Below, one piece after another: positions 4,071 through 9,755 of a DNA stretch of 23,587 nucleotides. Every line of letters begins with the position of its first letter. The stretch's first letter is position 1. The notes under the pieces are model-generated. The model made no database searches and was not told the DNA's origin. It was given only the letters and a program-made list of their open reading frames with translations. Made by a program: the position numbers and the translations under genes. This stretch comes from a bacterium (GTDB lineage Bacteria > JALSQH01), in contig JALSQH010000252.1 of NCBI GenBank assembly GCA_026985515.1, forward strand, positions 1-23,587. The letters are read 5' to 3'.

Positions 4071-4203
4071 GAAAAAAATGACATATATCTCTCCCTTCCC
4101 TTTCAACTTGCAACATTGATGCCACTGCTTTCAATTGCATAAAAATCAGAAGGTTACTTGCCTTTTGCTCCGGGTTGTTTTAAACTTAAAGAAGGAGGCA
4201 AAA

Positions 4204-6231
4204 ATGAAAATGATCTCAAATAGAAAACTTCTGAAAGTTCTTATTCCTTCAGTTCTTCTATCTCTGTTCCTTTACAGCTGCGGTGGATATATGGCCTATT
4301 TAGTGGCAGAGTTTATTGCCGAGCACAATCAACCAGAACCTGATAAGATAAACTTTAATCTCTATGACTTGCCCAGGATTTACAGAATAAAAGCAAATGC
4401 TGTGGAAATTTTTAAAAAAATTGAGTCTGAAGGTTTATCGGAAGACGACATAAACAGGCTTGAAGAAGTTATGCAGTATGAATCTTCCATATCCGATATT
4501 ATTTCAAAGCATCTTGTGACAGCCTACTATTCAATGATCTTAATAGACTTAAAGTACCTGCTGGAAAAATTGACTGCCAATGTGAATGGAGTACATACTA
4601 TATTTAAACCTCTCTCATCAATGAGCGACTTTTCCGCCATTTTTCAAAGAATGTTCTTTGAAAATCTGATACCCTTTATGAGTGATATTGAAAAGAGAAT
4701 TGGAATGCTTGCGTCTCTGGACCCTTCAAAAGTTCACCTTAAAGTGAAATACCTATCCTTGCATCTGAATATTCAGGGACTTCAGCAAATTCTTGGAGTG
4801 TTTAATCTGAAAATTGAACCTCACTCTTTCTATATTACAGATTCCCTTCTTCTCAATGGAAACTGGACCTATGTTGAGGTACTGCTCATCGGATCTCTTA
4901 ACAACTGGTTGTATGTTTTTGAAAACCTGCTCAGAAGTCTGACACTTGGAGATACAGTCACTTTTGGCCCCATTCTGGACAACTACTCCCACATAACCAC
5001 ATCAGAAGCAATCCCCAGAGAAATTTTCTTTGCCCATTTTCTCGCTGATTCCTTTCACAGGGACCCACAATTTCTCGCTTTTGATCCTCTGGAGGGGAAG
5101 AAAATTTTCTCATATGATTTAAGACTGCACCTTGATGCAGCTCTAAGTTACCTGACAGGTAGAGAAACCATTCTGAAATATCAGAACACTCTTTACGCTC
5201 CTCCAAATCCAGGATTGTTTGAAGCAATAAATCTTGAACTTACAAAGAAACAGGATGATAATTTCATTCAATTCCTTGAAGACCAGAATGATCCGGAACC
5301 CGGCAAATTTTCCACAGGTGACACAATTTACATCCCTGCTCTTGAAAATTTCATCCCCCAGCACTATCAGTTTAAAAATCCCTTATCAAGTGGAACAATT
5401 GAAAAACTGCTTGAATTTGGCAAGTCCCTTGAAGCACAGTTAGAAAACTTCAACCGAAAACCTTCACCTGTGGATATTTCCCCGATTCTCAACTCCCTGT
5501 TTAAGGATCTTCACGACTATTACACTCCCGACGAACCTCAACCTGCATCTTTCCCTGAAGGTCTTCTCAAAATCAATGCAGGCTCATTTTTTGCATCAGC
5601 CTTCACCGATTCCACCTTCACAGGATTGAGGGCTTTATTTCCTGCATGGGTCCCCAATCCCGACTACTCTTCATGCATTACAGATAGCGAAATTGGTAAC
5701 CGCCTCGATTTTATTCCAGGTAAGAGATGTACAACGGAGGATAACAACCCGGGATTTGAAGTTTTTGAATCATTGATGGTCTTTGAAATGGAAAAGAAAA
5801 ACCCCGATGGGTCATACCAGTTCTTTGGAAAATGGGTTACAGGAGGAAACTATTACTACGGTTTTATAAGCGGTGTAACTTCTGATCAGGGTCACTTTGA
5901 CCTCTTCTTCATTGATAGAGGCATACCAAATCATGATTTCTTTGGTGACATCAACCTTTACGGTGATGTAATAACAGGAAACATTGAACCCCTGCCGCCA
6001 GATAATCTCCTGCCTGAGGAAGGTGTACCACTTTACTATTCGGGTTTTCAATCCCCCGATTTTTATGGTCTTGTTGTAATTGATGCTTCAAAAATTCCTC
6101 TGATCCCTGTATGCAGAAACATTACCGGGAATAACAATCCTCTCTTTAATATAAACGCCATCATAAACTGCTTCAGACTTCAATATCACGAGCCACTCAG
6201 GAAAATAGCAGAGGGGATGGGGATAAAATAA
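4204..6231 (+). CDS. Large lipoprotein of unknown function
   Basis: The 675-residue protein starts at ATG 4204, preceded by AAGGAGG with 5 bases of spacing; an earlier in-frame ATG at 4135 lacks a binding site and would spoil the signal peptide. The N-terminus is a clear type II signal: basic residues, a hydrophobic run of about 15, then the lipobox LYSC with Cys26 lipidated. No residue is an Asp at +2 (GG follows), so outer-membrane sorting is expected if the usual rule holds. Residues 50-400 are mostly helical; the C-terminal 200 residues are beta-rich with many aromatic and Gly residues (around NYYYGFISG and FDLFFIDRG) and four cysteines that could pair. I recognise no domain. It faces the other lipoprotein gene across a 177-base divergent region; the fadR promoter follows directly. 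Confidence 0.85.
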   Translation: MKMISNRKLLKVLIPSVLLSLFLYSCGGYMAYLVAEFIAEHNQPEPDKINFNLYDLPRIYRIKANAVEIFKKIESEGLSEDDINRLEEVMQYESSISDIISKHLVTAYYSMILIDLKYLLEKLTANVNGVHTIFKPLSSMSDFSAIFQRMFFENLIPFMSDIEKRIGMLASLDPSKVHLKVKYLSLHLNIQGLQQILGVFNLKIEPHSFYITDSLLLNGNWTYVEVLLIGSLNNWLYVFENLLRSLTLGDTVTFGPILDNYSHITTSEAIPREIFFAHFLADSFHRDPQFLAFDPLEGKKIFSYDLRLHLDAALSYLTGRETILKYQNTLYAPPNPGLFEAINLELTKKQDDNFIQFLEDQNDPEPGKFSTGDTIYIPALENFIPQHYQFKNPLSSGTIEKLLEFGKSLEAQLENFNRKPSPVDISPILNSLFKDLHDYYTPDEPQPASFPEGLLKINAGSFFASAFTDSTFTGLRALFPAWVPNPDYSSCITDSEIGNRLDFIPGKRCTTEDNNPGFEVFESLMVFEMEKKNPDGSYQFFGKWVTGGNYYYGFISGVTSDQGHFDLFFIDRGIPNHDFFGDINLYGDVITGNIEPLPPDNLLPEEGVPLYYSGFQSPDFYGLVVIDASKIPLIPVCRNITGNNNPLFNINAIINCFRLQYHEPLRKIAEGMGIK

Positions 6232-6258: not shown

Positions 6259-6287
6259 TTGACAGGAGATTGTCATAGTGGTAATAT
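6259..6287 (+). promoter_or_regulatory. Sigma-70-type promoter of the fadR-etfB-etfA operon
   Basis: A perfect TTGACA (6259-6264) and TAATAT (6282-6287, four of six matches) are separated by 17 bases. The predicted start point is near 6294, inside the palindrome that begins at 6287, leaving a leader of about 22 bases before the ATG at 6316. This is the best-matching promoter in the window. Confidence 0.85.
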
Positions 6288-6304
6288 GAATGAGTATTCA
6301 TTCA
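6287..6304. promoter_or_regulatory. FadR-type operator palindrome
   Basis: TGAATGAGTATTCATTCA is a perfect inverted repeat with 7-base arms around GTAT. It matches the Bacillus subtilis FadR (YsiA) consensus TGAATGA-MTAN-TCATTCA as I recall it; read on the minus strand the centre is ATAC, which satisfies MTAN. It overlaps the last base of the -10 box and the predicted transcription start, the classic position for repression by blocking RNA polymerase. The gene it precedes encodes a FadR-like TetR protein, so autorepression is expected. Confidence 0.85.
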
Positions 6305-6315
6305 GAGTGGATAAA

Positions 6316-6921
6316 ATGAAAAAAAATAACGGGTTGAAAAAACAGGTTGATAAAAGAGAAAAAATACTCTATGCTGCCGTGCGGGTTTTTGCAAAAAATG
6401 GTTTCTACAACTCCACCATTTCCCAGATAGCGAAAGAGGCAGGGGTGGCTGATGGAACCATTTACATCTACTTTAAAAACAAAGATGATATTCTCATCAA
6501 AGTTTTTGAAGAGGCAATGAGCGTTATACTGACCACCCTCAATGAAAAGATGAAAGAAGTTGACGATCCTGTGGAAAAACTCCGGATTTACATAGAAAAT
6601 CAGTTTGAACTGGCAACCAACTATCCTGATCTTGCAGAAGTTATTCAGGTTGAATTAAGGCAGAGTGCCAAATTCATGAAAGAGTACACCAACGAACCCT
6701 TCCGGAAGTACCTGAACATCATTAAAGACATCATAAACGAAGGTAAAGAGAAGGGCATTTTCAGAGAGGATGTTGACGCAGGATTGATGAAGAGGGTAAT
6801 CTTTGGAACTCTTGACGAAATAACTCTCCACTGGGTTTTAAAGGGTAAAAAATATGATCTGGCACCGGTGGTGGACAAACTGCATAAAATATTTCTTGAG
6901 GGAATTCTGAAAAAACATTAA
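6316..6921 (+). CDS. fadR: TetR-family fatty acid degradation repressor, FadR (YsiA) type
   Basis: The 201-residue protein has a TetR DNA-binding domain at residues 12-60 with helix-turn-helix 34-53 (ISQIAKEAGVADGTIYIYF), then an all-helical ligand domain. Segments VELRQS (112-117), FGTLDE (163-168) and KYDL (179-182) match what I remember of Bacillus subtilis FadR, which binds long-chain acyl-CoA and then releases DNA. The start is ATG 6316, preceded by a weak GAGTGG; the upstream ATG at 6286 and TTG at 6259 lie in the promoter itself and cannot be transcribed from it. The gene is 15 bases from etfB, and the operator overlapping its promoter is the FadR type. In B. subtilis fadR also shares an operon with etfB and etfA, so the assignment rests on protein, site and context together. 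Effector binding is inferred. Confidence 0.85.
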   Translation: MKKNNGLKKQVDKREKILYAAVRVFAKNGFYNSTISQIAKEAGVADGTIYIYFKNKDDILIKVFEEAMSVILTTLNEKMKEVDDPVEKLRIYIENQFELATNYPDLAEVIQVELRQSAKFMKEYTNEPFRKYLNIIKDIINEGKEKGIFREDVDAGLMKRVIFGTLDEITLHWVLKGKKYDLAPVVDKLHKIFLEGILKKH

Positions 6922-6936
6922 AAGGAGGAGGTTATC

Positions 6937-7686
6937 GTGAAGATCCTTGTACCAGTTAAAAGAGTTCCGGATCCAGATGTTAAAATTAAACTGAAAAAAG
7001 ATGGGTCCGGGATCGACACTGAAGGTTTGAAGTTCGTTATCAATCCCTTTGATGAAATCGCTGTGGAAGAAGCTATCAGGATCAAGGAGAGACTCGGTGA
7101 TGTGGAAATTGTGGTCGTTTCCATTGGTGGAGAGGAATCCACTGAACAGCTGAGAACCGCCATGGCTATGGGTGCCGACAGGGCAATCCTTGTGGTTCAC
7201 CCGGACTACATTGATCCCCCAAATGTTGCTGCCATTCTGGCGAAGGTCGTTGAAAAAGAGCAGCCTGATCTCATAATTGCCGGTAAGCAGGCAGTTGATG
7301 ATGACCTGGGTCAGGCGATGCAGATGCTGGCAGAGATGCTTGATTATCCCCAGGCTACCTTTGCATCAAAGGTGGAGATTGATGGTACAAAGGTAACGGT
7401 GGTCAGAGAGGTGGATGGTGGTCTCACCACAGTTGAATTCGAAATGCCAGGAATCATTACCGCTGAATTGAGATTGAATGAACCAAGGTACGCCTCTCTC
7501 CCGGGAATCATGAAGGCCAAAAGAAAACCACTTGACAAAATGACCCCTGCTGATTTAGGTGTGGAAGTTTCACCGAAACTCACGGTGAAAGCAATGTCTG
7601 AACCACCAGCACGGAAAGCTGGTAAGATTGTTGAAAGTGTGGATGAACTTGTGAAACTCCTCCACGAAGAGGCAAAGGTAATCTAA
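6937..7686 (+). CDS. etfB: Electron transfer flavoprotein, beta subunit
   Basis: This is the 249-residue small ETF subunit, the normal family length. It pairs with EtfA to carry electrons from acyl-CoA dehydrogenases to the quinone pool through ETF-quinone oxidoreductase. Visible landmarks are the N-terminal [12 protein letters not shown], the AGKQAVDDD segment (115-123) of the nucleotide (AMP) site, the VVREVDGG signature (155-162) and the recognition loop [20 protein letters not shown] (176-195), whose leucine inserts into partner dehydrogenases. The start is GTG 6937, 5 bases after GGAGGAGG. The sequence looks like a group I (non-bifurcating) ETF, although this needs structural comparison. 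No dehydrogenase is encoded in the window, so partners must be elsewhere. Regulation by FadR is expected. Confidence 0.97.
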
Positions 7687-7707: not shown

Positions 7708-8685
7708 ATGGGAAACGCTATAGTATATATTGAAACAAGAGATGGTGCTTTGAAAAAAGCTTCACTTTCAGCAGTCAGTGCTGCAAAAGATTATGTTTCA
7801 AAGGCTGGTGGAGATGTAATTCTTGCAGTGCTGGGTAACAATGTGGACTCCGTTGCTGAGGAAGTAGCAAAACTTGGTGTGGCAAAAGTTCTTAAGGCTC
7901 AGGGGGCAGATCTTGAAAACTATGTGGCTGAAAGCTATACCCAGGTATTGAAACAGATAGCAGAGGCGAACGACGCATCCGCCATTTTTGGAACTGCAAC
8001 TGCACAGGGAAAGGACCTGCTTCCAAGGCTTGCAGCCGCCCTCGGAGCTGGAATGGCAAGCGATATCCTTGAAATCATAGATGATAAAACCTTTAAGAGA
8101 CCCATGTACGCCGGAAATGTAATTGCTGAGGTAGAAATTTCAACTCCTGTTAAAGTCCTCTCTGTAAGAAGCACAGCCTTCCCCCACGCTGAGGCAGGAG
8201 ACACAGCTGCACCCATTGAGGATTTCTCCTACTCACTTGACTCTTCAAAGGTAAAAACAAAATTCGTAAAATTTGAAGAGATCAAATCTGAGAGACCCGA
8301 ACTCACAGAGGCAGAGATTGTTATTTCTGGTGGTAGAGGAGTCAAGGGTCCTGAAGGATTCAAGATGCTTGAGGAACTCGCCGACATACTCAACGCAGCA
8401 ATTGGTGCCAGCAGGGCTGCCGTTGATGCTGGATGGGTACCCAACGATCTCCAGGTTGGTCAGACAGGTAAAATCGTGGCACCCAATCTCTACATCGCAT
8501 GTGGAATTTCCGGAGCCATTCAGCACCTTGCCGGTATGAAGGATTCAAAGGTCATCGTGGCAATCAACAAAGATCCAGATGCTCCCATTTTCCAGGTAGC
8601 TGATTACGGCCTGGTTGCAGATTTCTTCAAAGTGTGGCCGGAATTTGTTGAGAAAGTAAAGCAACTTAAGGCTGAAGAAGGTTAA
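7708..8685 (+). CDS. etfA: Electron transfer flavoprotein, alpha subunit
   Basis: The 325-residue large ETF subunit holds the redox-active FAD. The N-terminal domain (1-190) forms the complex with EtfB; the C-terminal domain (about 203-325) binds FAD, with SGGRGVKGPEGF (207-218), SRAAVDAGW (235-243), GQTGKIVAP (251-259) and the family signature beginning LYIACGISGAIQHLAGMKDS (261-280) and running on to VIVAIN. All expected flavin-contact residues I can place are present. The ATG follows AAGGAG and lies 21 bases after the etfB stop. A strong intrinsic terminator begins 3 bases after the stop codon, so this is the last gene of the fadR operon. Confidence 0.97.
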   Translation: MGNAIVYIETRDGALKKASLSAVSAAKDYVSKAGGDVILAVLGNNVDSVAEEVAKLGVAKVLKAQGADLENYVAESYTQVLKQIAEANDASAIFGTATAQGKDLLPRLAAALGAGMASDILEIIDDKTFKRPMYAGNVIAEVEISTPVKVLSVRSTAFPHAEAGDTAAPIEDFSYSLDSSKVKTKFVKFEEIKSERPELTEAEIVISGGRGVKGPEGFKMLEELADILNAAIGASRAAVDAGWVPNDLQVGQTGKIVAPNLYIACGISGAIQHLAGMKDSKVIVAINKDPDAPIFQVADYGLVADFFKVWPEFVEKVKQLKAEEG

Positions 8686-8688
8686 TTG

Positions 8689-8716
8689 ACGAGGGGAGAT
8701 TTCCCCTCGTTTTTTT
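8689..8716 (+). terminator. Intrinsic terminator after etfA
   Basis: ACGAGGGGA (8689-8697) and TCCCCTCGT (8702-8710) form a perfect 9-base stem with a 4-base loop, followed by six more Ts (8711-8716). It is a textbook rho-independent terminator closing fadR-etfB-etfA. Its T run ends only 7 bases before the next start codon. Confidence 0.95.
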
Positions 8717-8723
8717 ATGAAAA

Positions 8724-9755
8724 ATGCCTCTTTTTCGTGAGGAAGTTTTAGATTTTCTGGGAACTGTGGGTATTTATCAGATAGTGATGCCAACTCCTTT
8801 TCCACAGGCGGGTGATGTATACTCTTTTTTAATCAGAAGAGAAGATAAATTCATACTCTTTGATGCCGGTCTCAAGACAGAGGAAGCAAAGGAAGCATTC
8901 TTCCATTTTATAAAAAAATACAACATTGATCTGTGGCAGATTGAAAAGATTATTCTTTCCCACGGCCACATAGATCATTATGGTCTTGCCAGTTTCATCA
9001 GTGAAAAAAGTGGGGCAAAAATTTTCATTCATGAGAAAGACAGGCTCAAGGTACATAAAGATTACCTGAAAATCTACGACGAAGGCGCCGCAGTATACCA
9101 CGAATTTTTCGTAAAAAATGGCATGCCAGAAAAATTATCCAGGGCACTTATAGAGGTCGGAAAGAATTTTAATTTTTTTGCAGATCAGCTGGAAGATATT
9201 GACACAGTGGATGAAGGTGACATCATAGAGTACGATGGTGGCAGATTCAGGGTGATTCATCTTCCAGGCCACACACCGGGATGCATAGGCCTTCACGATG
9301 AAGAAAGAGGGATCATGCTGGGTGGTGATACTCTCCTGGCAAAAATTTCTCCAAACCCCATAATTGAACTGGGAGAAAAGGGCGAAGAAGAGAGGTTCAA
9401 AAGCCTTCCCACATATTTCTCCAGTCTCAAGAGAATTGAATCCCTTTCTTTAAAAATGGTAATACCTGCCCATGGAGAATGTATTACCGAACCATCCCGA
9501 ACGATTGCCACACTAAGAAAATTCTATTCGTTGAGGCAGAGAAAAATTCTGCATGTACTTGAAAATGGTCCTCTAACCCCATTTGAACTTGCAGTCACTC
9601 TTTTCCCCGAGAGAAAAAATGAAATTTTTCTCATCTTCTCAGAAGTGATAGGAAACCTGGATATGCTCGAAGAAGAGGGAAGGGTTGAGAAAGAAGAAAG
9701 GAATGGTAAGATTTACTACAGGAGAAGCAAAAATGAGCTGGCTGTTAACAGATAA
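8724..9755 (+). CDS. Metallo-beta-lactamase-fold hydrolase with C-terminal winged-helix region (LACTB2-like)
   Basis: The 343-residue protein has all metal ligands of the MBL fold: HGHIDH at 80-85, H183 in LPGHTPG, D202 in GGDTL and H250 in PAHGE. After the fold, residues 270-343 (beginning RKFYSLRQRKI) look like a helical/winged-helix tail, as in LACTB2-like enzymes, some of which cleave RNA and others small esters or thioesters. The substrate cannot be read. The ATG at 8724 is the first in frame but has no ribosome binding site, and it sits 7 bases beyond the etfA terminator; GTG at 8766 is an alternative. The alpha/beta hydrolase gene overlaps its end. A role in acyl-CoA or lipid metabolism would fit the neighbours but is inference. 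Confidence 0.9.
   Translation: MPLFREEVLDFLGTVGIYQIVMPTPFPQAGDVYSFLIRREDKFILFDAGLKTEEAKEAFFHFIKKYNIDLWQIEKIILSHGHIDHYGLASFISEKSGAKIFIHEKDRLKVHKDYLKIYDEGAAVYHEFFVKNGMPEKLSRALIEVGKNFNFFADQLEDIDTVDEGDIIEYDGGRFRVIHLPGHTPGCIGLHDEERGIMLGGDTLLAKISPNPIIELGEKGEEERFKSLPTYFSSLKRIESLSLKMVIPAHGECITEPSRTIATLRKFYSLRQRKILHVLENGPLTPFELAVTLFPERKNEIFLIFSEVIGNLDMLEEEGRVEKEERNGKIYYRRSKNELAVNR

Follow-up and report, generated by a model that had tools for sequence, protein, structure and literature searches.

The fadR-etfB-etfA operon described here is, with a probability of roughly 0.9, an autorepressed operon that responds to long-chain acyl-CoA and belongs, in a diderm lineage, to a predicted FadR regulon for core beta-oxidation. 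Directly established were the protein's identity, the site and its overlap with the promoter, the three genomic copies with their targets and the conservation in other lineages. The mechanism itself is already known; the mildly new part is that one operator is conserved across many phyla, far outside Bacillus.

Results

The window is the whole of contig C252 (23,587 nucleotides), which is part of a 2.36-Mb draft genome that is 97.6% complete. A sigma-70-like promoter of fadR-etfB-etfA is located on the plus strand at 6259-6287 and is composed of the -35 element TTGACA (6259-6264), a spacer of 17 bases and the -10 element TAATAT (6282-6287). The predicted FadR operator is located at 6287-6304 and reads TGAATGAATACTCATTCA on the minus strand, to which it is assigned, and TGAATGAGTATTCATTCA on the plus strand; two perfect 7-base arms flank the non-symmetric centre GTAT, and the last T of TAATAT is also the first base of the operator. 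An earlier note on this DNA had described this promoter followed by an 18-base palindrome with an overlap of one base, which was borne out by direct reading and by the promoter scan, in which the same promoter was recovered with 10/12 matches and a TG preceding the -10 element. The palindrome had also been equated with the FadR consensus on the minus strand, and TGAATGAATACTCATTCA indeed fits TGAATGAMTANTCATTCA, the consensus of B. subtilis FadR. The operator spans roughly -12 to +6 of the predicted transcript and ends 11 bases upstream of the TetR gene (6316-6921); translation of fadR may instead start at an upstream in-frame ATG that lies within the operator, at 6286.

Three genes follow on the plus strand, namely fadR (6316-6921, a TetR-family regulator of 201 aa), etfB (6937-7686, electron transfer flavoprotein beta subunit of 249 aa, PF01012 with E 9.5e-43) and etfA (7708-8685, alpha subunit of 325 aa, PF01012 and PF00766), and the operon is closed by an intrinsic terminator found by the terminator scan at 8688-8711 on the plus strand, with a 10-pair stem and then a T run. 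The gene partners had been described as the same as in Bacillus, which holds for a FadR-like gene followed by etfB and etfA but not for fadB and lcfA, which are absent from this operon, whereas the order in Bacillus is lcfA-fadR-fadB-etfB-etfA (PMC4525379). Directly upstream of the promoter lies a large lipoprotein-like open reading frame of 698 aa (4135-6231) with no Pfam match. A gene for a hydrolase of the metallo-beta-lactamase fold (8724-9755) starts 13 bases past the terminator and is followed by an alpha/beta hydrolase gene; the former is probably outside the FadR operon because it has no operator.

The regulator contains the TetR_N helix-turn-helix domain (PF00440, 5.2e-16) and the YsiA-like ligand domain TetR_C_4 (PF08359, 5.6e-34), and it scored 214.7 bits on the NCBIfam FadR equivalog NF053878 (cut-off 200), while the two TetR_C_4 paralogs in the genome scored 91.7 and 69.9 bits. 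In the PDB sequence search, the FadR proteins from B. halodurans and B. subtilis matched best, with about 155-165 bits, and the next family reached 71. A model of the regulator was built with AlphaFold2 from 13 orthologs (pLDDT 91), and the closest folds to this predicted model were again B. subtilis and B. halodurans FadR (Z about 24), including the stearoyl-CoA-bound structure 3whc; the match to 3whb had a Z of 24.5 with 1.6 A over 185 residues, compared with a Z of 20.4 for the next family. The overall identity to Bacillus FadR is 43%, and the recognition helix is nearly identical, VADGTIYIYFKNKDDIL in the window protein and VADGTIYLYFKNKEDIL in B. subtilis FadR. The FadR-like character claimed for this protein is supported by a score above the NF053878 cut-off and by the sequence and fold searches. 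Three other types of regulator were rejected: the PsrA equivalog of NCBIfam gave 30.8 bits (cut-off 300), only TetR-family domains were present and not those of the GntR-family FadR of E. coli, and Thermus FadR reached 48.9 bits, where B. halodurans FadR reached 165.5, and has the operator TTRNACYNRGTNYAA instead of TGAATGA-N4-TCATTCA.

In a tree of 48 proteins, the window FadR grouped with FadR proteins of other lineages, including one from a Syntrophobacterales genome, in a clade of 26 rows (96/96), and the paralogs, one of them from the genome of the window, formed a clade of their own (100/99). Bacillus FadR stood outside the 26-row clade in an unresolved part of the tree, and the joining branch was likewise unresolved. 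A phylogenetic comparison with the FadR proteins of Bacillus and Thermus had been proposed earlier; the tree placed the protein in a FadR clade apart from the paralogs, and by its score in the PDB sequence search Thermus FadR is a distant relative, with another operator.

One of the paralogs, encoded on contig C9 (L119:4492-5100), is 38% identical to FadR, shares its contig with an acyl-CoA ligase and a thiolase, and its gene is without the FadR operator. It is conceivable that the palindrome belongs to another TetR protein such as this one and that FadR has a different site, and the weak FadR similarity of the paralog (91.7 bits) and the ligase and thiolase on its contig would fit. We consider this very improbable, since its recognition helix, VAYGLVYHYYKGKD, differs from that of FadR, it belongs to the separate paralog clade, and the palindrome co-occurs with FadR orthologs and precedes their own genes. 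A second TetR gene in the same genome also carries an 18-base palindrome, TGACTGACTGGTCAGTCA (L118:3765-3782; G000:C1:7764-7781), which overlaps its promoter TTGACA-17-TATACT; efflux genes of the TolC, HlyD and RND types come after this gene, so the same layout serves an efflux operon. We considered this gene as a regulon member and rejected it, because the operon that it heads is for RND efflux and its palindrome differs in both arms. Another genome, G015, encodes a FadR paralog with TGACTGACTGGTCAATCA just before its start (L099:1479-1496) and an acyl-CoA dehydrogenase after it, and therefore the second type of palindrome is not limited to efflux.

The pattern TGAATGANTANTCATTCA was found at exactly three places in the 2.36-Mb genome, all exact, while the reversed control pattern was found at none and no site in the genome had exactly one arm mismatch. 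By chance, 0.07 perfect-arm sites would be expected (first-order Markov, whole genome), or 0.004 with a TA centre. Besides the site in the window, the second copy (C30:2994-3011) lies 27 bases before a thiolase gene that is followed by a 3-hydroxyacyl-CoA dehydrogenase gene (fadA-fadB), and the third (C84:4847-4864) lies 42 bases before the gene of a 614-aa acyl-CoA dehydrogenase that is weakly similar to Bacillus FadE. At each of the three sites, the start codon of a beta-oxidation operon is no more than about 45 bases away, and there is a promoter of the form TTGACA-16/17-TANNNT, the -10 element ending from one base inside to five bases before the operator. Genes for LptF and LptG adjoin the acyl-CoA dehydrogenase of the regulon and indicate an organism with an outer membrane, which supports the earlier guess of a Gram-negative host.

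The earlier note had suggested scanning the genome for further copies before acyl-CoA ligase, acyl-CoA dehydrogenase or thiolase genes. Both other copies do precede a thiolase operon or an acyl-CoA dehydrogenase gene, but the acyl-CoA ligases are without a site. Upstream regions of 11 AMP-binding loci, 12 acyl-CoA dehydrogenase loci and the CCG-domain loci, a few of them cut by contig ends, contained nothing better than 4 mismatches. No site was found before the ligases, the other acyl-CoA dehydrogenases checked or the FadF-like iron-sulphur protein of 702 aa, and therefore the regulon is smaller than that of Bacillus. Arms with 2-3 mismatches gave 187 sites as against 74 for the reversed-pattern control, which is of similar order; weaker members of the regulon are not claimed because relaxing the arms to three mismatches adds background only.

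The comparison genomes included one of the same family as the window genome and were otherwise related to it only at the level of the domain. In the same-family genome the fadA gene is 89% identical, and its promoter and operator have been preserved, in contrast to the more distal upstream DNA, which has diverged. A sample of 336 genomes across the domain, in which a FadR ortholog was defined by NF053878 with E at most 1e-38, contained 34 genomes with a FadR ortholog, 31 with a perfect-arm site and 20 with both. A perfect-arm site was thus present in 20/34 FadR-positive and in 11/302 FadR-negative genomes (Fisher p 9e-16, with related genomes treated as independent), and some two fifths of the former had none. 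By our own tally, about 30 of the 43 sites in FadR-positive genomes precede fadR, acyl-CoA dehydrogenase, thiolase, fadB or ligase genes. Among the FadR-negative genomes, sites before such genes were found only in G001 (the same family as the window genome), G318 (congeneric with a FadR-positive genome), and G115 and G252 (both encoding a weaker FadR relative), and in none of the other seven.

Most of the FadR orthologs examined had the same site, with 0 or 1 mismatch, before their own gene, and the fadR-etfB-etfA linkage was found again in several families. A near-consensus promoter was present at the operator in 12/28 cases, compared with 2.3% of random positions. The scan of a Bacilli-like class, which covered small genomes only and serves as background, gave 1 exact site in 247. 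Short palindromes do arise: in every 30 to 40 FadR-negative genomes there is about one perfect-arm site. A chance palindrome over an ordinary promoter was considered on this ground; its probability is negligible, and it is refuted in practice by three copies against the small number expected, by their position before beta-oxidation genes in every case and by their conservation across lineages. Two FadR-positive genomes, G036 (L218:1972-1989) and G315 (L222:2025-2042), carry perfect-arm sites before genes that by eye resemble NuoE/HydC-type NADH dehydrogenase subunits, which may be an additional target common to both genomes and connect beta-oxidation to electron disposal.

Discussion

In B. 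subtilis, five fad operons are under repression by FadR, and acyl-CoA of C14-20 inhibits the repressor (PMC4525379); it is from the Bacillus family that we infer DNA binding, repression and the ligand. A FadR dimer would sit on the 18-bp operator, from the last base of the -10 element across the transcription start, and would keep RNA polymerase off or stalled at the start of fadR-etfB-etfA. The same repressor would act on two more operons, fadA-fadB and that of the 614-aa FadE-like acyl-CoA dehydrogenase. As the level of long-chain acyl-CoA rises, this ligand would bind the C-terminal domain and FadR would leave all three operators, so that the dehydrogenase, the remaining beta-oxidation spiral and the electron-accepting ETF would be made together. 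Once the acyl-CoA is spent, repression would be re-established by FadR itself.

The inducer is the part of this scheme that invites another reading, in which the repressor and operator are the same but the natural ligand is a medium-chain, branched, dicarboxylic or aromatic acyl-CoA and there is no long-chain switch. With about 17 matches to the acyl-CoA dehydrogenase N-domain and 11 AMP-binding matches, the genome leaves room for many acyl-CoA substrates, the identity to Bacillus FadR is low and falls mostly in the ligand domain, and one other genome has a site before acyl-CoA carboxylase-type genes. We regard this reading as unlikely, although clearly less so than the two considered above. 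The targets resemble FadE, FadA and FadB and belong to general long-chain beta-oxidation, and stearoyl-CoA-bound FadR is among the closest folds to the predicted model. Furthermore, the TetR-type FadR2 of Desulfococcus multivorans, which has etfAB and fadF as neighbours, was specifically detected in cells adapted to myristate (PMC5109826). Control by long-chain acyl-CoA is therefore preferred.

It seems rather probable that FadR and TGAATGA-N4-TCATTCA form an old, widespread beta-oxidation switch of many diderm phyla, not a Bacillus system, in which the operator, the recognition helix and the fadR-etfBA linkage have stayed almost unchanged and lineage-specific targets have been added. Our literature search returned no paper reporting the operator outside Bacillus, which is weak evidence of novelty because the coverage misses most subscription journals. 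The finding leaves the known mechanism of FadR unchanged. It provides a testable fatty acid oxidation regulon for a lineage without cultured members, and a repressor-operator pair of Firmicutes becomes usable for annotating fatty acid degradation genes in many uncultured diderm phyla. Among the many acyl-CoA dehydrogenases of this genome, the site singles out one that is likely to serve general fatty acid oxidation.

As compared to known systems, E. coli FadR has the same name and an acyl-CoA-responsive role but is an unrelated protein of the GntR family, whereas PsrA and FadP of Proteobacteria are likewise TetR-family repressors of fatty acid degradation (PMC5343134). The same work, which surveys proteobacterial regulons on a large scale, lists GntR FadR, PsrA and FadP, and the portion of it available does not name a Bacillus-type FadR. 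Thermus thermophilus FadR shares the TetR family, the acyl-CoA ligand and the control of acyl-CoA dehydrogenase and etfBA genes (PMC5597230), but it is a distant relative with a different operator. A TetR-type FadR2 was already on record in the sulphate reducer D. multivorans, also a diderm, where it lies beside etfAB with a proposed control of fatty acid degradation; its locus, likened here by description, differs in also containing ligase, dehydrogenase and fadF genes, and the accessible part of the report gives no operator for it (PMC5109826).

The closest likeness is to FadR (YsiA) of B. subtilis and B. halodurans, with which the window protein shares the TetR_C_4 domain, 43% identity, the fold, the near-identical recognition helix and the operator TGAATGA-N4-TCATTCA. 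Three operons are predicted here against five there, neither fadB nor lcfA is part of the operon of fadR, the ligases and the FadF-like gene are without a site, the host is diderm and the protein belongs to a clade apart from Bacillus FadR. Common to both regulons are the etfB-etfA link and the targets thiolase, 3-hydroxyacyl-CoA dehydrogenase and acyl-CoA dehydrogenase (PMC4525379).
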